64,000 bases of DNA from Branchiostoma floridae (lineage: Eukaryota > Chordata > Leptocardii > Amphioxiformes > Branchiostomatidae), in contig NC_049994.1 of assembly GCF_000003815.2 (NCBI RefSeq), forward strand, positions 6,480,858 through 6,544,857. The letters are read 5' to 3'. The first letter of the stretch is position 1, and each line of letters opens with the position of its first letter. A program made the position numbers and the translations under genes. The notes under the pieces were generated by a model. That model did no database searches. It had not been told where the DNA came from and saw only the letters and a program-made list of their open reading frames with translations. This document shows, piece after piece, positions 3,701 through 54,900 of this stretch.

Positions 3701-6700
3701 TTTCAAGATAAAAACATATTAGGAAAGGCAACAAAAAGGCAATTTGAACTCCATTTAGATACAGCTAATGCTGTTTTTGACAGGGCCTAGGAAAAAAAAG
3801 TTGTGTTCCCTGTTTGAAATTCCCTACCTACCCTAGAAAAACCAGCCAACACTAGACTTTTTTGGGGGGTAGGAAGTGCAGTCACATAGCTTCCAGTTAG
3901 AATTTTATTCAGCCTGCTTCTTATTGAAGTAAAAACACTGCTTGTCCTATCTAATGAAGGATAAATGTACATGTGTATCTATAATGCACAAAATTCAAGT
4001 TTGACATTGAAAGACACTTACAAGTAGTGTCCTCGTGTATTTCAGCTTTGTTCAAGTATAAGTTTAAGTTTTGGCCAGCCTAAAAAAACAATCCGTAGTA
4101 CCTATTTTTTTCAGGACTGAAACAGGAAACACAACATTCTAGGCTCAATCGATCTATTTTTTTTTTCTTCTACAACATATAAGAGGCTATAACCTATTGG
4201 TTTGAGAAGGGTGCCTCAGCTGGCATTTGGGTTTTCGCATATTAAGTCCTTAACATGAGGCATATGACACATATCTTAGTTTCTTAAAGGGGGCATATGA
4301 TAGACTTATTACAGGAAATGAATTCTATTATATAAAAGGAAATTCTACGATACAGGTCTAGGAAAAATTATTCATTTTTTTTTATCATTCAAATATGCCC
4401 CATCCATACCTCCACATCAAACATTTGTATCTTCACCTTCTATACTACTTACTTAATGGTGCATTGATGTGGTCGATGGTTGCTATGATACGGACCCCGC
4501 CCACCTGAGCCAGCTGACACAGAACAGTCTGTACCTTCTCCCCACGCAGCATGGGGCCATCGATGTTGTGGATGAACAGGAATAGCTCTTCTGTTTAGGG
4601 AGAAAATGTTCTGTATTAAAGGGGCATTCCACTCCACACGGGAGTGTTATTTTCCAATAGATATTAATTCTAGAAAGTGATAACTGCATACTACTTCACA
4701 TTATACGATAAAGTACCCAGTTGCCCCACATGCCTCAAAAGCATTCAGTCTTCTACTAAACTCCCCAAGTACCCTCTAATTGAATTAATCCTATGGCTGA
4801 ATACAATGCAAAACCTTTAGGTAAGGTTACAAAACTAATTTCAGGTTCGCTAAGAAATCTCGTCTTGTTCTTGTATTCTTTGCTTATAATCTTATGAGCA
4901 ATTTGCCTTCTCGGTGTGCTCAGCGTACCTCATTTATTCCAAAAATATGTACGACAAACACAGTGTCTATGCGTATAGGGAATGCATTGGTAGGGTCTGC
5001 ATGGGTTTTTGAGTGTCATTATTGTACACATCACGTAATTCATCCCAAGGTGAATTCCACAAAATTCGACTGATTATGTATTCATTGCCACATTATCTAT
5101 TGGAAAACAAGACTCCCTTCTGGAGTGGAGTGCCCCTTTAAGTCACTGTACCAAAGCTGCATATCAGAAGTGGGTGTACTAAAAAAAACTGCTATATCGC
5201 AACAATCTTTTACATTTGTAGGTATAGTTTCAAAATACTTGAACATCAATGGTACTGTATATGAATTGGATGAAACTTAATTATATGTATAACTATTTGA
5301 TGTTAGATCAAGATCAAACTTAGCACTGGAAAGAGATGAAAACATTTTACGTTCATAGAAATCAGCACTATCTTCGATTTCTTCCCTTGATTCTCTGCAT
5401 AAGACACTTGAAGTCTAACAATTCTACTAACTGTTTGGTTATGTTTTTGTCATCATTGAAGACCTCTGTCATTACTTGTCAAATTGTTTGAGTACTGGTA
5501 CAGGTACAGCAACAAATCCAGACCTCCAATCTGAACTTCTATACTGGTATCTCTGCCTGTACAATGTACTTAGGCCTAGGGAAAAAAATGTTGTGTTTCC
5601 TGTTTCAGTCCTGAAAAAATTAGGGTCGGTAGGTAGGGGATATCTTTTTTTTTTTTGTAATTTTTTTTAGGCTAGCCAAAAATCTAGTGATACATATTAC
5701 AATACAGTTGAACAAAGGAAACTGAAATGTATGAGGACACTTGTCTTTCTATGTCAAACTTTGATTTTGTGCACAATAGATACATTAATCCTTCATTAGA
5801 TAGGACAAGCAGACTGTTTTTACTTCAATAGGAAGCAGGTTGAATAAAAATTCTAACTGGAATCTTTGTGACTCCACTGCCCACCCTAAAAAAAAGTCTA
5901 GGTTTTTCTAGGGAAGGTAGGGAAACAGGAAACACAACATTTTTTTTTCCTAGGCCTTAGTGTTAAATTTAGTTATTAATAAGAGGTTCTACACTGACTG
6001 ATATCATGGTAAATACACATGCAAGTGGAACAGTGCATGAATTGTAAATATAGAGCAAATGAAAAGTGGCTTTTCTTTTGAATTTCCGAGACAAACCCTA
6101 CCTCCAGTCTCTTCAAAAGTGTCCTTGATGAAGGTTAGCTGGTCCTGTACACTTCTGAAGCTCCCAGTGTGCTCCAGTACTTCTTCTGTTATTGAATTCA
6201 AAATCTGTAGGGAAGAGAAAAAAAAAGGTTATTAGCTAGGCACTTGTCACGAATCAAGAATTCAATTTGGCCGAATTGCCAGCGAGCTCCAAATGGGCAT
6301 TTTCTGCTACTTGTAATGTCCTGGCGATTACTTAGGCCTTCAGGCAATTCAGACAATTCTGAATGGTTCACATTGCACTGCAGCAAATTGATTTTGCAGC
6401 AGTAACAATAGATGATACATGTAATTGTTGCCCTGATATCATTGTAACCTTACTTGACATCATCTAATATGTATATAATACACTCCTTTAAGTTTGGGAT
6501 GACCACATCAGTCCTGAAAAAAATAGGGTCGGCAGGTAGGGATTATCTTTTTTTCCTTGTAATTTTTTTTAGGCTGGCCAAAACTCTAGCGTGACAGTAG
6601 AACAAATTAAGCTGAAATGCATGGGACACTAAGTGTCTTTCAATGTCAAACTTTAATGTTGTGCATAATAGAAATATTTATCCTTCATTAGATAGGACAA

Positions 6701-9700
6701 GCAGTATTTTACTTCAATAGGAATTAGGCAAAATAAAAATAACTGGAAGCTATGTGACTCCACTGCCCACCCAAAAAAAGTCTAGGGTTGGCAAATATTT
6801 CTAGGGTAGGTAGGGAAACAGGAAACACAACATTTTTTTTCCTTAGCCTTATTCAGTGACTTACCAACCTGTTGAAACTATTCATAGATTTGTACTCACA
6901 TGTTTAACAGTTATACTTGGAAAGTACCCGTTGACCACCATCTGTACTGTGTCCCTGAGTATGGTGGATCTGAACTGTTCTATACTCACATGTTTAACAG
7001 TTATACTTGGAAAGTATCCGTTGACCACCATCTGTACTGTGTCCCTGAGTATGGTGGATCTGAACTGTTCTATACTCATCACATGTTTAACAGTTATACT
7101 TGGAAAGTATCCGTTGACCACCATCTGTACTGTATCCCTGAGTATGGTGGATCTGAACTGTTCTATACTCACATGTTTAACAGTTATACTTGGGAAGTAC
7201 CCATTGACCACCATCTGTACTGTGTCCCTGAGTATGGTGGATCTGAACTGTTCTATACTCACATGTTTAACAGTTATACTTGGAAAGTATCCGTTGACCA
7301 CCATCTGTACTGTGTCCCTGAGTATGGTGGATCTGAACTGTTCTATACTCATCACATGTTTAACAGTTATACTTGGGAAGTACCCATTGACCACCATCTG
7401 TACTGTATCCCTGAGTATCTGAACTGTTCCATACTCACATGTTTAACAGTTATACTTGGGAAGTACCCGTTGACCACCATCTGTACTGTATCCCTGAGTA
7501 TGGTGGATCTGAACTGGTCCATACTCACATGTTTAACAGTTATACTTGGGAAGTACCCGTTGACCACCATCTGTACTGTATCCCTGAGTATGGTGGATCT
7601 GAACTGGTCCATACTCACATGTTTAACAGTTATACTTGGGAAGTACCCGTTGACCACCATCTGTACTGTATCCCTGAGTATGGTGGATCTGAACTGGTCC
7701 ATACTCACATGTTTAACAGTTATACTTGGGAAGTACCCATTGACCACCATCTGTACTGTATCCCTGAGTATGGTGGATCTGAACTGGTCGATCAGCACTC
7801 TCTTGGACCCGAGTCCATACAGCAGCAAGTTGAAGCCATTACTGTGTAGGTACAAAACGGATTGAGCTTCATTAGAAAGCCAAGTTCTCATCTGTTTAAG
7901 AAGAGCCACTATGGTATGTTATTATGTTAATGATGTGATGAGGTCACTGCGGTCAAATGGTTCCTTCCGCGCTGTATACCATCAGCCCTTTTTGATCACC
8001 CTGTCATCTTGAAATAAAGCATTATGTGACTTTGGTTGCATCCTTGTCACTGAGTCAATCATCAGCATATTACATTGATTTCATAATTATTATTTTGTTT
8101 ATTAAGACAACACATATGCATGTATTTATTTTTAGTTCAAATACTGAGCTGGTCCATGATTGCTAGACATCCAGGTTATACGATTCACAACAATTTGAAC
8201 AAATGATTTACTCAACCAACTGGATACATTTTCAGATGTTAAAATGTCTGACCATTTCCAAAATTTATGCAGATGTTTGAATAACTATTATCTTGCATGA
8301 ATGAGCTATTTTCTATATGTGATAAACCGACATACATGTATTAAAATTGGTGTGGGTGAAGAAATGGTCCCATGCATTACCTCAGCTGTAGCATCCACTT
8401 GTGGAAGTGGCACCTGTGTTCCTGATACAGCTGCTGCAGGTGCTGGATGTGTGCTGCAGGTGCGTGCTGCAGGGCTGACTGCAGCCTGGCCTGGTCCATG
8501 CGGGGGATGTTCAGCCTGGACAGGGTGCGGTCGGACGTGGGGCCAGGCCGGGCCCCGCCGTGGGCATGGAAGTACTCCTCTACCATCTCTGGCTGTGGGA
8601 GTAGTTACAATGTAATATCAGACAGGGTGCGGTCGGACGTGGGGCCAGGCCGGGCCCCGCCGTGGGCATGGAAGTACTCCTCTACCATCTCTGGCTGTGG
8701 GAGTAGTTACAATGTAATATCAGACAGGGTGCGGTCGGACGTGGGGCCGGGCCGGGCACCGCCATGGGCATGGAAGTACTCCTCTACCATCTCTGGCTGT
8801 GGGAGTAGTTACAATGTAATATCAGACAGGGTGCGGTCGGACGTGGGGCCGGGCCGGGCACCGCCGTGGGCATGGAAGTACTCCTCTACCATCTCTGGCT
8901 GTGAGAGTAGTTACAATGTAATATCAGACAGGGTGCGGTCGGACGTGGGGCCAGGCCGGGCACCGCCGTGGGCATGGAAGTACTCCTCTACCATCTCTGG
9001 CTGTGGGAGTAGTTACAATGTAATATCAGACAGGGTGCGGTCGGACGTGGGGCCAGGCCGGGCACCACCGTGGGCATGGAAGTACTCCTCTACCATCTCT
9101 GGCTGTGGGAGTAGGCCAAGATCAGAGCTGTCATACATATTCCTTTAAGACTTGATGTACAGACTTTTTTGGTGTGTTTTACAAAATGTAGTTTGAGTTG
9201 TTCTGTATCTACAGCTATTGGGCAGATGTCAAAGTTAGGGCTGTCCATAGGAAAGGATCCCTTGCAAACATGGGTTTTAACACAGACTGAAGGTAGACAG
9301 AAGGTGGACTTACTGCTGGCAAAAGGGGAGTTAGTCCCAGAATAAGTCCACCCCATTTTACCATGTCTGAAGGCTGTTGGTGTTAGCTTTGGTGGGCTAT
9401 TATCCGCACTGAGTCCTTCACACTGATTAAGAGAGTAAGTCCATCTTCAGTCCCTATTATGTCCTGCTCATTAATCACCAGTGCTGGGAGAAGGCCTCAG
9501 CACAGATGTAAGATGTGCCCTTCTGTTCTTTATCTGGGGGGTTCATCATGGGATGACATCAATTTGTCATGCATCCAAGCTCTACTTACAGGAAGGTCCT
9601 GCAGAAGAAAACTATAGACTGTAACTTAGGGACCGTACGGCATTTAGCGAGGGGGGAGGGCCGGTCGCCAGGGGGGGGAGGGCCAAGCAAAAAAATATTT

Positions 9701-38156: not shown

Positions 38157-41100
38157 TCAGCGTGCAACTGCACACAACTCAAATGGAAAAGGCACATTGA
38201 TGGCACTGCCCAACTTTCCCAACATGGACGGCTCAGGTGCGCCCTCTGGCAGATTGAATGTGAAACGCTGCATCAGGGAGACGAACAGCATGAAGAGCTC
38301 CATCTTGGCCAGCTGTTCACCGAGACATACCCGGTGGCCTGGAGAAAAATGTTAACAAGCATGGTAAACAGAATTGTACTTGCTTTATCCTAGGGACAGC
38401 CTCCCCGATCTGTTGACCGGACATAATATTACCAGAAGGGTTACATCCTTGATTAGCGTGCGTAGTCCAGTGGTTAGCGGCCCTGCCTCTGGAACTAGAA
38501 GCCGTGAGTTAGATTCCGGCTGTGTCGTTCACCCGACATGTTCGCTACCAGAAATGGTTGCAGTCCTTAGTACAGGATGTTAAGCCGTGGTCCACTGTTC
38601 ATTGTGCTCGTCGAAAAGAGCTAAGGGAATTTCCCCGTACAATGAACCTGTAAATACTGTACATAGCGTCTGTCCTCTCTGTCACAACCAGTGGAAGATT
38701 AGCTCTTCAGTGAGCTAAAACTGGATTGAGATCACTTTCCTTTCCCTTCTTTCCTTGCATCAATGAAAATAGTACTCTACAAGCAGAGGTTGAGTTGCGT
38801 AGATATCGTAGTAGTCGGAAAAATTACACCGGTGCTCCTTGCCGGCTTAAACTGCTAAAGTTTGCTACCAATGAGAAAACGGGAAATAATGAGCTGAAAA
38901 CAGGCAAGATGTTGTATACACGTTTCTCAGTGTATCTTTCTGTTTGTTTCTTTTCAGGTAGAAGGCAATGAGAACGTTGCTATTACTATACAATTCAATG
39001 ACTATTGTATTTGCTCAGTGTAAAATATATAAGATTTCCACACTGACTCACCGATACCAAACGGGACGAGCGCCTCGTGTTTGACGAAGTTTCCGTCCTG
39101 ATCCAGGAAACGTTCGGGTCGGAAGGTGTTCGTCTCCGGGAACAGCTGAGGGTCCATGTGCACGGACCACAGGTTGATCTGGCACACGAGCATGGAAGAA
39201 TAATTCAACGATGACTACAAAAAATAAGTAGTTGATTGAATGAATGGTTGAGAGACAAAATATAAACATGCATCCCTCGTCCAAGAAGAGGTTGGGTTGA
39301 TAGTGGCTCTCCTGCTGCACCTAGTTACAAATCGGCTGTAATGTGTCAGATAAAGGGGCGATATCATATTGATTCTCCAAAAGAGAATCCTGGATCTCTC
39401 TTTGGAGAATTAATATGATAAGGGGGTGCTATCACATCCATTCTCCAATAGAAGAATCCTGAATCTTTCTTTGGAGAATTAATGCGATAAAGGGGTGCTA
39501 TCACATTAATTCTCCAAAAGAGAATTCTGTATCTCTCTTTGGAGAATTAATGTGATAAGGGGGGCGCTATCACATTAATTCTCCAATAGAAGAATCCTGA
39601 AACTCTCTTTAATAGGAGAATTAATGTGATAAAGGGGGTGATATCGCATTGTTTCTCCATTAAGAGAATCCTGGATCTCTCTTTGGAAAATAAATTTGAT
39701 AAAAGGGGTGCTATCACATTAGTTCTTCACAAGAAGAATACCGGATCTCGCTTTGAAGAATTAATGTGAAAAATGGGTACTATCACATTAATTCTACAAT
39801 ATATGAATCCTGGACCTCTCTTTGGAGAATGAATGTGACAAAGGGGTGCTATCACATTAATTCTACAATAGAAGAATCTGTCTTTGGAGAATCAATGTGA
39901 TAAAGAGGGTGCTATCATATTAATTCTCGAAAAGAGAATCCTGAATCTCTCTTTGGAGAACTAATGTGATAAAGGGGGTGCTATCACTCTAGTTTTCCAA
40001 TAGAAGAATTCGGAGAAGAATCCTGAATCAGAAGTGAATTCTTGTTGGCGAAAAAATGAGACAATGTTTCTACCTATCACTATCACATGTTTTACAGTTA
40101 TCACGCTTTTAATGAGAAATCCTTTTGACCTAAAAGAATGAGATAGATAGCTAACTCTAGATCACTGGCTTCAGGGCTTGTCATTAAATCAATCAGACAT
40201 GGAGAGAAGGGGTTGCACGAGGAGCTCCACAGAGCTGACCTCCATGGAGGTTGCTCGTGCAGCCCTCCAGCTCCACCGAGCGAGCTCTATGCGCTATGAA
40301 TACAAACACTTGGTTCTCGTCACCTTCATGGAATTTTTAGTACTACATAGAGGAGGTTCTCTCGTAGAGGACAAACAGCCGGAATGAACTAGCAGCTGTA
40401 CGCAAAACATGGTACACGGGCTATTAATGTATACATTTGGTTCACGTCACCCAAAACAAATTGGTCTTAGCGCTCTGTACGGTAACAGAGGGTTGTTTGA
40501 GCAACGCTCTACGGGTTATGAATGTAAACACTTGGTTCACGTCACCATCAACAAATCGGTGTTTAGGGCTCCATACAGAGATAGTGTAAACAACAAACAC
40601 ACGGAGCCGATAACTGACCAAGCAGCTCCAAGGGCTATATGAATGTAAACACTTGGTTCACGTCACCATCAACAAATCGGTGTTTAGGGCTCCATACAGA
40701 GGTATTGTAAACAACAAACACACAGAGCCGATAGCTGTTTGAGCAGCTCCACGGGCTATATGAATGTAAACACTTGGTCTACGTCACCATCAACAAATCG
40801 GTGTTTAGAAGTCCATACAGAGATACTGTAAACAACAAACACACGGAGCCGATAGCTGACCAAGCAGCTCCACGGGCTATATGAATGTAAACACTTAGTT
40901 CACGTCACCATCAATAAATCGGTGTTTAGGGCTCCATACAGAGATAGTGTAAACAACAAACACACAGAGCCGATAACTGACCAAGCAGCTCCACGGGCTA
41001 TGAATGTAAACACTTGGTTCACGTCACCATCAACAAATCGGTGTTTAGGGCTCCATACAGAGATACTGTAAACAACAAACACACGGAGCCGATAGCTGTT

Positions 41101-44100
41101 TGAGCAGCTCCACGGGCTATATGAATGTAAATACTTGGTTCACGTCATCAACAAATCGGTGTTTAGGGCTCCATACAGAGATAGTGTAAACAACAAACAC
41201 ACGGAGCCGATAGCTGACCGAGCAGCTCCACGGGCTATATGAATGTAAACACTTGGTTCACGTCACCCAAAACAAATCGGTGTTAGGGCTCTATACAGGA
41301 ATACTGTAAACAACAAACATACAGAGAGCCGATAGCTGACCGAGCAGCTCTACGGGCTATGAATGTAAACTCTTGGTTCACGTCATCAACAAATCGGTGT
41401 TAGGGCTCCATACAGAGATACGGTCAGAGGTCTGTCCAAGCAGCGCTCTACGGGCTATGAATGTAAACATTTGGTTCACGTCACCCAAAACAAATCGTTC
41501 TATGAAACAAACATACACAGAGCGGAGATCTGAGCCAGCACCTCTACGCACTATGAATATAAACCATGCGGACAAACAATACTCAGTATCTCATGTACCT
41601 TTAAATGACCCAAGAAACTGAATATGTTTTTTCTTCATGCTGATTTTGGGTTACAGAATAGTGAGTTTGGAAAAGTAGTCGGAATTTACCGGCTCGCTCA
41701 CTTCACATGGGGACCCAACCTCTTCTTTGAAAATAGATGTGCGTTGTTTGTTTGCCATTGTAAAGAATGCGGAAGCTTCGCACCTCCGTGCTAATAGCTG
41801 TTATTGGTTTACTTCAGCCCTGTAACAAGTTTGTGGAAATCTGTTGGTCCACTACCAAAACAAAAGAAACATTTGGTTTCATAAACGATATATTGCTACC
41901 TGTTATGAGGAGATTTCCAAACCAGGGTGCCTGTTTTTATAAGAATATAACGGCTTTCATAAGAGTTTTATGGAATATGTATGAATCTATATATATGTAT
42001 TTCATACGATTCATTATAAAAAAAACACACGGATTTAAACTCAAATGAGTTGCGAAATGCACAAGATATATTTACTATTATTAGAGATCGTATGAATTCC
42101 GTGATCTTAATCTCAAAGAAAGTTCTTGTTGTCCAAGACGAACTCAAAATAACCCATTCATTGAATGAAGCGAGCGGTGAAATGTTTGTCCCTCTCGCAA
42201 GGAAAGCTGAAAGTTCGCACCTCCTTGCTAATCCGACATCGCCCCAAAGCGCGCCCTTACCATGCCAGAACACTCGCCGGAAGCAGCTGGCTGACTGGCC
42301 AGTAACTTTTCAAGGAGACGTTGGTAGAGTAAAGTGTGACTTTTTTCTTGAAGGTCTGACTTTTCCCCGCTGGTCTTACCGGCATATATATATGAGAAGG
42401 TTACAATATCGAAGACTCTACCAAGCTGTACATGCCTGTACATTCAACATCGACTTGAAGAACAAAAATAATCCCGTGCAGCGCTGCTTGGACAGACCTC
42501 TGACCGATTTGTTTTGGGTGACGTGAACCGAATGTTTACAATCAAAGCCCGTAGAGCGCTGCTTGGACAGACCTCTGACCGATTTGTTTTGGGTGACGTG
42601 AACCAAAAAACGTGAACCAAGTGTTTACATTCATATAGCCCGTGGAGCTGCTCAAACAGCTACCGGCTCTGTGTGTTTGTTGTTTACAATACCTCTGTAT
42701 GGAGCCCTGAACACCGATTTGTTGATGGTGACGTGAACCAAGTGTTTACATTCATATAGCCCGTGGAGCTGCTCAAACAGCTATCGGCTCTGTGTGTTTG
42801 TTGTTTACAATATCTCTGTATGGAGCCCTAAACACCGATTTGTTGATGGTGACGTGAACCAAGTGTTTACATTCATATAGCCCGTGGAGCTGCTTGGTCA
42901 GCTATCGGCTCCGTGTGTTTGTTGTTTACAATATCTCTGTATGGAGCCCTAAACACCGATTCGTTGATGGTGACGTGAACCAAGTGTTTACATTCATATA
43001 GCCCGTGGAGCTGCTCAAACAGCTATCGGCTCTGTGTGTTTGTTGTTTACAATATCTCTGTATGGAGCCCTAAACACCGATTTGTTGATGGTGACGTGAA
43101 CCAAGTGTTTACATTCATATAGCCCGTGGAGCTGCTCAAACAGCTATCCGCTCCGTGTGTTTGTTGTTTACAATATCTCTGTATGGAGACCTAAACACCG
43201 ATTTGTTGATGGTGACGTGAACCAATTGTTTACATTCATATAGCCCGTGGAGCTGCTCAAACAGCTATCGGCTCTGTGTGTTTGTTGTTTACACTATCTC
43301 TGTATGGAGACCTAAACACCGATTTGTTGATGGTGGCGTGAACCAAGTGTTTACATTCATATAGCACGTGGAGCTGCTCAAACAGCTATCGGCTCCATGT
43401 GTTTGTTGTTTACAGTATCTCCGTACAGAGCCCTGAACACCGATTTGTTGATGGTGACGTGAACCAAGTGTTTACATTCATAACCCGTAGAGCGTTGCTC
43501 AAACAACCCTCTGTTACCGTACAGAGCGCTAAGACCAATTTGTTTTGGGTGACGTGAACCAAATGTATACATTGATAGCCCGTGTACCATGTTTTGCGTA
43601 CAGCTGCTAGTTCAGTCCGGCTGTTTGTCCTCTACGAGAGAACCTCCTCCATGTAGTACTAAAAATTCCATGAAGGTGACGAGAACCAAGTGTTTGTATT
43701 CATAGTGCATAGAGCTCGCTCGGTGGAGCTGGAGGGCTGCACGAGCAACCTCCATGGAGGTCAGCTCTGTGGAGCTCCTCCATGGAGGTTGCTCGTGCAG
43801 CCCCTATTGGACATGGATAGACGTATGCAAATGCATATGGATAAAAGAATACAAAAAGACAACAAAAAACTTCAGGGAGACAAGAAAGATTGGACGGAGG
43901 CGGGCAAACAGAAAAGGGTATATAGATATTGGTAAGTAGCTATAGACGTAGATAGATATGAATAGATAAAAGACGAATACAGATTGAGATAGATGGATCA
44001 GTCTATGGATAGAGGAAAGAATAAAACCCAAATTTTCTTACAAAAATCATGGCATCCTGGGGGATGTTGTAACCATTCAGGGTGGTGTCCCGGGATGCTG

Positions 44101-51986: not shown

Positions 51987-54900
51987 TCAGCGTGCAACTG
52001 CACACAACTCAAATGGGCAAGGCACATTGATAGCACTGGCCAACTTTCCCAACATGGACGGCTCAGGTGCGCCCTCTGGCAGGTGGAACGTGAAACGCTG
52101 CATCAGGGAGACGAACAGCATGAAGACCTCCATCTTGGCCAGCTGTTCACCGAGACATACCCGGGGGCCTGGAGTAAAAAAAAAGTTAACAAGTACTGTA
52201 AACATGCATGCATTGTAGTCAAACAGTCAAAAGGACAGTCTCCCTAACCTGCTGACCGGATCTATACCAAAAGGGGACGATGCATCAATAATACTAGTAT
52301 GTTGGAGTTAAAGTGCTACACAGTTATTTAGCGATAAGAAGCAGAACTGCAGTTAGAAGCTCTGACGAATGTGTCTGAGAGGCATTAAAACGCAAGTAAC
52401 GTAAGTAACTGCTGGTTGTGTAAAAGAATTCTCCTATATCCTAAACTGCTAAAGTTTGCTACCAATGAGAAACAAAACGCGAATAATGAACCGAAAACAG
52501 GCAAGCCAATAATAAAGAGGCTGTATACCTGTTTCTCAATGTATATAAACAGGTGGAAAGCAATGCGTACGTGGTTACTTAGACTATATACCCGTATGCA
52601 TTCATAGGATATTGTATTTGCTCCGCGTAAAGGTAGATAGATAAAAGGTTCCCACACTGACTCACCGATACCAAACGGGATGACCGCCTCGTGTTTGACG
52701 AAGTTTCCGTCCTGATCCAGGAAACGTTCGGGTCGGAAGGTGTTCGGATCCGGGAACAGCTGAGGGTCCATGTGCACGGACCACAGGTTGACCTGGAACA
52801 CATGCATGGAAGAATGATTAAATGATGACTACAACTTTAAGTAGTTGCATGGTTGAATGAATGTTTGAGAGACGAAATATAAACATGCACCCCTCGTCAA
52901 AGCAGAGGTTGGGTCGCGGTGATAGTAGGAGGCTCTCTTGCCGCCAAAGATTTCACACCTAGTTACAAATCGGCTGTAAAGTGTCAGATAAAATGGGTGC
53001 TATCACCTTACTTCTCCAAAAGAAAATCCTGAATATCTCTTTGGATTATTAATGTAATAAAGGGGTGCTATCACATTAATTCTCCAAAAGAATCCTTAAT
53101 CTCTCTTTTGAGAATAAATGTGATAAAGGGGGTGCTTTCATATTAGAAGAGAATCCTGAATCTCTCTTTTGAGAATCAATGTGATAAAGGGGGTATTATC
53201 ATATTAATTCTCCAAAAGAAAATTCTGACTCTCTCTTTGAAAAAATTATGTGATAAAGGGGGTGCTATTACATTAATTCTCCAAAAGAAAAATCCTGATA
53301 TCTCTTTGCAGAATAAATGTGATAAAGAGGGTGCTATCACATTGATTCTCCAATTCCAAAAGAGAATCCAGAATTTCTCTTTGGAGAATAAATGTGATAA
53401 AGGGGGTGCTATAACTTTCTCCAAAAGAAGAATCCTGATCTCTTTTTGGAGAATTAATGTGATAAAGGGGTTGCCTGAATCTCACTTCGGAGAATTAATG
53501 TGATAAAGGGGGTGCTGTCACATTAATTGTCAAGTAGAAGAATCTCTCCTAGAAGAATTAATGTGATAAAACCAGAGTGTTGTCACAATAGTTCTCTAAT
53601 AAAAAGAATCCTGAGAAGAATCCTGAATCAGAAGAGAATCCTTGTTGATGAAAAAAATGAGACAAAGTTTTTACTTATCACAATCATATGTTTTGTAGTT
53701 ATGAGTTAAACGCTTTTCATGACAAATACTTTTTTGAGCTACAGCTAAAAGAATGAGATAAATGGCTTACTCCCCATCACTGGCTTCATGGCTTGTCATT
53801 AAATCAATCAGACATGGAAAGACGTATGGAAATGCATATGGATAAAAGAATAGATAAATCAACAGAGAACTTCAGGGAGACAGGAAATATTGTAGGAAGG
53901 CTAGCAAACAGAATAGCGTATATAGATATAGGTAGGTAGATACAGCTGCAGATAGATATGGATAAAGAAAAGACTAATTCAGATTGTGTTGTTGGACGGA
54001 TCAGAAGAAAGAATCAAAACCATAATTTTACTTACAAAAATCATGGCATCCTGAGGGATGTTGTAGCCATTCAATGCGGTGTCCCTGGACGCTGCGTGGG
54101 GAACGCTGAGTGGCGCGACGGGTTTCATTCGCTGCACTTCCGCTAGGGTCGCTGTTGTGTAGGGTAGCTGGTTCCGTTGTGCGTAGGACGGCGCGCTCTG
54201 CCCTAACACCGAGTCTATCTCCTGATGAACCTGTGTAGGCACATGCTTGCTGTTATTGGGTGCTTGAAATCACGTGAGTATGACGTAATCTAGCTTCCGC
54301 CATGTTGATGGGTGAAACTGCTCGGTGAAGAAGGTTTTAAACAAGTTATTGCCCGCAAGTTTTTCTGCATATCTAAGAAGCATCAATATTTTCTTTCTTA
54401 GAATTACCAAATGAAAGAGTCATGGTTTTCTTTTGCCACCCTACTACTTCCCTTACATTTGAAAATTGAGTTCGACTACTGAATCAATTGCGTTCAATGC
54501 GTTATTTACTATCTAACGTTACTAAAAGTTGCCGGGAACTTGCCTTTTCCTGGATGTCTGGGTTGAGCATCATGTACAACAGGCCCCAGCGAGTGGTGGT
54601 GGCGGTGGTCTCAGTACCGCCCAAGAACAAGTCTATCAGCACCTGGGGTAAAACATAATACTTGAAGTCAGTTTCTTCTGCAAATGTTTAATTTATCCCT
54701 TCATCTATATTGACTCATTCATTCATTCATCCTATCTTTTCTTCGTCTATTAATTCATCTATTGATTCTTCTACCCATTTATTCCTTCCTTCCTTCCTTC
54801 ATTCATTCATTCATCCATCCTAACGCACCTCTTGCAGCTCCTTGTCGGTGAAGTGCTCCCGAGCTTTTTCCTCCGGAGCCCGCTGCTGCTCCAGCAGAAA

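Follow-up and report, generated by a model that had tools for sequence, protein, structure and literature searches.

Why should a core replication gene, and an essential one, carry rows of copied splice sites beside two of its exons, and are the copies put to any use? We addressed this question for ORC2 in a 64,000-nucleotide stretch of the Branchiostoma floridae genome (hereafter the window).

The minus-strand gene and its exons

Eight exons with GT–AG splice sites, running from 8592 to 783 on the minus strand, join into a C-terminal reading frame that stays open for 339 residues. This part of the protein matches the Pfam families RecA-like_ORC2 (PF04084, E = 1e-83) and ORC2 WHD (winged helix; PF24882, E = 6.1e-24), and its top match in the PDB is the ORC2 chain of entry 5uj8 (E = 1e-132), which we take to be the human protein. 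Judged from its predicted product, the gene is ORC2. The exon that bears the first array (array A), numbered exon 7 in the original prediction, is entered in phase 2 and left in phase 0. When its native donor at 7708 is used, the protein aligns to ORC2 of 5uj8 without a gap across the junction. The features discussed below are collected in Table 1.

Table 1. Positions in the window of the two arrays, selected donor sites and the adjoining ORC2 exons
Feature	Position	Strand	Basis or remark
Array A	6893..7786	-	TRF period 90, 9.9 copies, score 1538
Array B, polarity opposite to array A	8519..9114	-	TRF, acceptor scan; 102 bp units
Donor 1, native, GTGAGTAT	7701..7708	-	Motif scan
Donor 5, GTGATG, mismatched to GTRAGT at +5 and +6	7350..7355	-	Motif scan
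Donor 8, GTGATG	7077..7082	-	Motif scan
83 bp unit, donor 4 to donor 5, with 7 bp deletion	7356..7438	-	Frame break, leads to stop
Native ORC2 exon bearing array A	7709..7841	-	133 bp; acceptor ACACAG/TAATGG, donor ACAT/GTGAGT
Next ORC2 exon, splice partner of 7841..7709	6102..6204	-	Exon joining
Native preceding ORC2 exon	8381..8592	-	212 bp; acceptor is the last of array B

Two arrays of opposite polarity

In array A the final 81 bp of the exon occur ten times, once with a 7 bp deletion. Nine copies continue into GTGAGTATG, GTGAGTATA or GTGATGAGTATA; the tenth runs into unique intron. A splice signal lies inside the units: the motif CATGTGA locates ten minus-strand donors, at 7708, 7618, 7528, 7438, 7355, 7262, 7172, 7082, 6989 and 6899, compared with 9.9 copies counted by TRF. 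Their spacings are 90, 90, 90, 83, 93, 90, 90, 93 and 90 bp. Eight of the ten donors read GTGAGT, while GTGATG occurs at the two (7355 and 7082) that open both 93 bp units. The units are not uniform but differ from one another in an ordered manner (GAC or GAA, and the 83 and 93 bp types). When a 287-base piece of the array was compared with the genome (one assembly; 513,431,437 bases in 431 contigs), it matched array A only.

Splicing from donors 2, 3 or 4 would leave the exon open and in phase, with a length of 223, 313 or 403 nt, and would add 30, 60 or 90 amino acids. In units 2–4 the native residues are encoded again, joined by V-S-M. Donors 5–10 are out of frame because of the 7 bp deletion in the 83 bp unit, and a stop is reached after 158 codons, counted from the first codon of the exon. 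The anatomy of this array thus agrees with the original prediction, which had described ten units each with an ORC2 exon end and a 5' splice site, 90 bp units holding 81 bp of exon end, GTGAGT in most units and GTGATG in the 93 bp variants, in-phase gains of 30, 60 or 90 residues through donors 2–4, and a frame break caused by the 83 bp unit.

A second array, missed in that prediction, is made of the copied start of the preceding ORC2 exon. Each unit of array B joins 27 nt of intron end, with its 3' splice site, to 75 nt of exon start. The motif CTC[CT]CACAG locates six acceptors, compared with 5.8 TRF copies, and their first exon bases are 9102, 9000, 8898, 8796, 8694 and 8592. All five upstream acceptors bring in an in-frame TAA, and ORC2 can therefore be obtained from the last acceptor (8592) only. 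The intron ahead of the first acceptor has its last 12 nt, and nothing further, in common with the units. Arrays A and B sit on the outer sides of two neighbouring ORC2 exons; for the intron between these exons, the TRF list contains no array.

At the joints between units of array B (for example on the sense strand just before 8694), a 16 nt filler, TGATATTACATTGTAA, separates the exon part from the intron part. In the intron immediately upstream of the first acceptor this filler is missing. A templated origin was considered on the basis of an 11 nt inverted match in the next intron, but was rejected as too weak, an equal match being found in 11 of 300 shuffles.

Relation to the known mirages of amphioxus

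The original prediction took an arrangement of this kind to be unusual. This is less well founded for amphioxus, where minisatellite arrays spanning exon–intron boundaries have been described as a class of their own, termed 'mirages', in Adh3, BflGb6 and BflGb9 (PMC3087553; for the Adh3 mirages, Canestro et al. 2002, as cited there). PGBD5 and troponin C (TnC) add further lancelet boundary arrays (PMC3902484). The ORC2 units likewise span an exon–intron boundary of a gene, and a splice signal lies within the units of both arrays. Arrays A and B are two new members of this known class.

ORC2 differs from the globin and Adh3 mirages in having both polarities on neighbouring exons of one gene. 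Its units of 90 and 102 bp compare with 150–160 bp for the globin genes and 10–72 bp for Adh3, according to the passages of PMC3087553 that give unit lengths. Lancelet PGBD5, like ORC2, has two boundary-spanning arrays in one gene (60 bp and 108 bp repeats); unlike those of ORC2, its repeats are called imperfect, and two genome versions disagreed on their copy number (PMC3902484). VCBP3 introns contain partial exons with splice sites, and the likeness to ORC2 lies in these copies of exon pieces beside a coding exon; in the portion of the paper concerned they are not, however, described as a tandem minisatellite, and the authors marked the data as not shown (PMC2632668). Intron gain by tandem duplication across an exon–intron boundary shares such a duplication with the ORC2 arrays. 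It made a new intron, whereas the ORC2 arrays extend existing introns and no new intron position is evident.

In the passages of PMC3087553 and PMC3902484 that deal with splicing, mirages in the Adh3, globin and TnC genes are stated to leave regular splicing undisturbed. Ebner et al. (2010; PMC3087553) point out that cryptic splicing could occur at the repeated signals, and put mirages forward as an origin of new introns. The same paper gives a mirage length that differs between haplotypes for BflGb6 and, as cited there, even somatically for Adh3. For PGBD5, a 57-residue exon was predicted from most of two 108 bp repeats; it came without cDNA support and was omitted by the authors (PMC3902484). 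In a cell assay, haplotype segments of amphioxus VCBP genes are described as producing a variety of transcripts, part of them frame-shifted. Taken with the partial exons of VCBP3, these cases indicate that copies of boundaries may not be silent in every case.

Similar arrays elsewhere in the genome

Over the whole genome, CAGGTAAGT donor pairs 79–109 bp apart number 182, compared with 4 for the pattern read backwards, and CAGGTGAGT pairs number 1575, compared with 1. We rejected these figures as counts of mirages, as dispersed repeat families and simple minisatellites fill the places listed (about 100 each). The backward pattern was likewise rejected as a control, as it leaves the commonness of donors uncontrolled.

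Instead of counting, 14 arrays were chosen by eye among the CAGGTAAGT matches listed, outside the evident dispersed family. Five of these (L041, L042, L043, L047 and L049) were judged to share the build of a mirage, with an open frame up to the first donor and copies of the exon end behind it. The other nine (L036–L040, L044, L045, L046 and L048) were excluded before any variants were counted, on the grounds of a short or ambiguous frame (168 versus 150 nt in L046, 147 versus 144 nt in L048), a frame that is partly repeat, or a 22 bp unit (L040). The frames of the five retained arrays were set from open frames, also before variant counting. That of L043 is not clearly the longest (198 versus 180 nt) and was picked for its cysteine-rich pattern.

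A Pfam match was obtained for one of ten submitted frames: L041 resembles N_BRCA1_IG (E = 1.5e-4, below the curated cut-off), and a 90 bp, four-copy array lies at this exon (L041:2503–2861, reverse orientation). The L047 frame gave no match when searched against the PDB. The open frame extends to extra donors in L041 (three of three) and L047 (two of five), and to none in L042, L043 and L049. ORC2 is thus probably not alone in this genome in bearing such arrays. L049 is far larger than the ORC2 arrays, with about 26 units of 81 bp according to TRF (L049:2508–4572), and its exon reads as coiled-coil-like.

Differences between units are mostly synonymous

We compared the exon-derived parts of the units with the native exon ends, dropping units with more than 20% mismatch. 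This cut-off leaves L042 with three units only; 23 units of L049 were matched. As a null model, the same base changes were placed randomly on the same bases in 20,000 draws. Array A, with the 83 bp unit excluded, has five differing sites, four synonymous and one nonsynonymous. In array B all four differing sites are synonymous, as is a further variable position at the breakpoint that was excluded from the count. Together, eight of nine ORC2 differences are synonymous, compared with a random mean of 2.9, and 11 of the 20,000 placements reached as high a number. For the five other arrays 27 of 42 differences are synonymous (random mean 13.5), a value reached by none of the 20,000 placements.

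Taken singly, placements as high numbered 641 for ORC2 array A, 174 for ORC2 array B, 577 for L041, 91 for L043 and 233 for L049, where 8 of 12 differences are synonymous. The bias is not notable in L047 (4/9; 5040 placements as high) or in L042 (3/4; 2348 placements), and we count both arrays against the explanation favoured below. In the two shifted frames of all seven arrays, 9 of 54 and 6 of 53 differences are synonymous.

None of the extra units is readable in frame in ORC2 array B, L042, L043 or L049. As a consequence, the bias in ORC2 array B, L043 and L049 cannot stem from translated units, which points to the exon as the source of the copies rather than to translated long forms. On the simplest account, the copies would derive from the functional exon or exchange sequence with it, or units of the array would once have served as exon end.

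Splicing and maintenance of the ORC2 arrays

We consider it probable that arrays A and B are mirages of which only the native sites are spliced, the copies leaving with the intron, and that the exon seeds the copies or exchanges with them. Short tandem duplications spanning an exon–intron boundary, followed by growth through unequal exchange or slippage, would have placed array A in the intron that follows the donor of one ORC2 exon, and array B in the intron that leads up to the acceptor of the exon before it. The spliceosome would then pair the exon-proximal native sites, i.e. the first donor of array A and the last acceptor of array B, and the ORC2 protein would remain unchanged. Exclusive use of the native sites is likely in view of the published cases, the ungapped junction and the stops brought by donors 5–10 of array A and the five upstream acceptors of array B, which prevent 11 of the 14 extra sites from yielding a complete protein. 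Since GTGAGT is common to eight of the ten donors, the choice among them would have to depend on position rather than on the donor core. An exon copy that is kept coding by selection, and that repeatedly seeds or exchanges with its array, would account for unit differences that are mostly synonymous even though most units are untranslatable.

The original prediction raised instead the possibility that array A is used, with donors 2–4 lengthening the ATPase-like core of ORC2 by 30, 60 or 90 residues in isoforms that vary with the length of the array. Its structural premise stands: these donors are open, in phase and carry GTGAGT as the native donor does, and the units that they would add encode native residues joined by V-S-M. 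The isoforms themselves are quite unlikely, as one to three extra 30-residue copies would enter a region that is ungapped relative to ORC2 of 5uj8, mostly synonymous variation is also found in arrays that cannot be translated, and splicing is said to proceed undisturbed by the mirages of Adh3, globin and TnC genes (PMC3087553, PMC3902484). The premature stops behind donors 5–10 and all five upstream acceptors of array B would suit another role, in which splicing from distal donors occurs at low frequency, the frame-shifted transcripts decay and array length tunes the dose of ORC2; the length variation reported for BflGb6 haplotypes and, as cited, for Adh3 somatically (PMC3087553) would fit as well. 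At the ORC2 locus both distal-site use and length variation are hypothetical, and we hold such a role to be very unlikely. The same low probability attaches to a length-variable splicing dial that unites the two, with near donors leading to in-frame long ORC2 and far donors to decay-prone transcripts. If true, the number of units would tune the amount or form of ORC2 between individuals or even between cells.

Misassembly or the merging of haplotypes could also lie behind the arrays or the number of their copies. Haplotype merging and older shotgun data both went into one published chromosome assembly of B. floridae (PMC7269912), and Ebner et al. call one mirage aberrantly assembled in the draft genome (PMC3087553). 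Against such an origin, which appears improbable, stand the ordered differences between the units of array A and the presence of similar arrays at other loci.

With native splicing and exon-fed copies as the preferred reading, a core replication gene with two opposite mirages joins a little-studied class. A rule for that class may follow, namely that coding selection leaves its mark on boundary copies even where these are untranslatable, which points to exchange with the exon. Such a coding mark across the mirage class seems worth testing, and it bears on how repeats at splice sites persist harmlessly and on their possible seeding of new introns.

Other repeats in the window

Further repeats of other kinds are found in the window. 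A long inverted repeat at 40219–43780, with 783 nt arms that are 95% complementary, resembles a foldback-type mobile element, and its arms contain 121 bp tandem arrays (40506–41421 and 42610–43505, TRF). Two distant arrays, at 39349–40009 and 53012–53515, consist of units of roughly 69 bp (GATAAAGGGGGTGCTATCACATTAATTCTCC...) that are related to each other and in which internal inverted repeats can be seen by eye in the TRF consensus.
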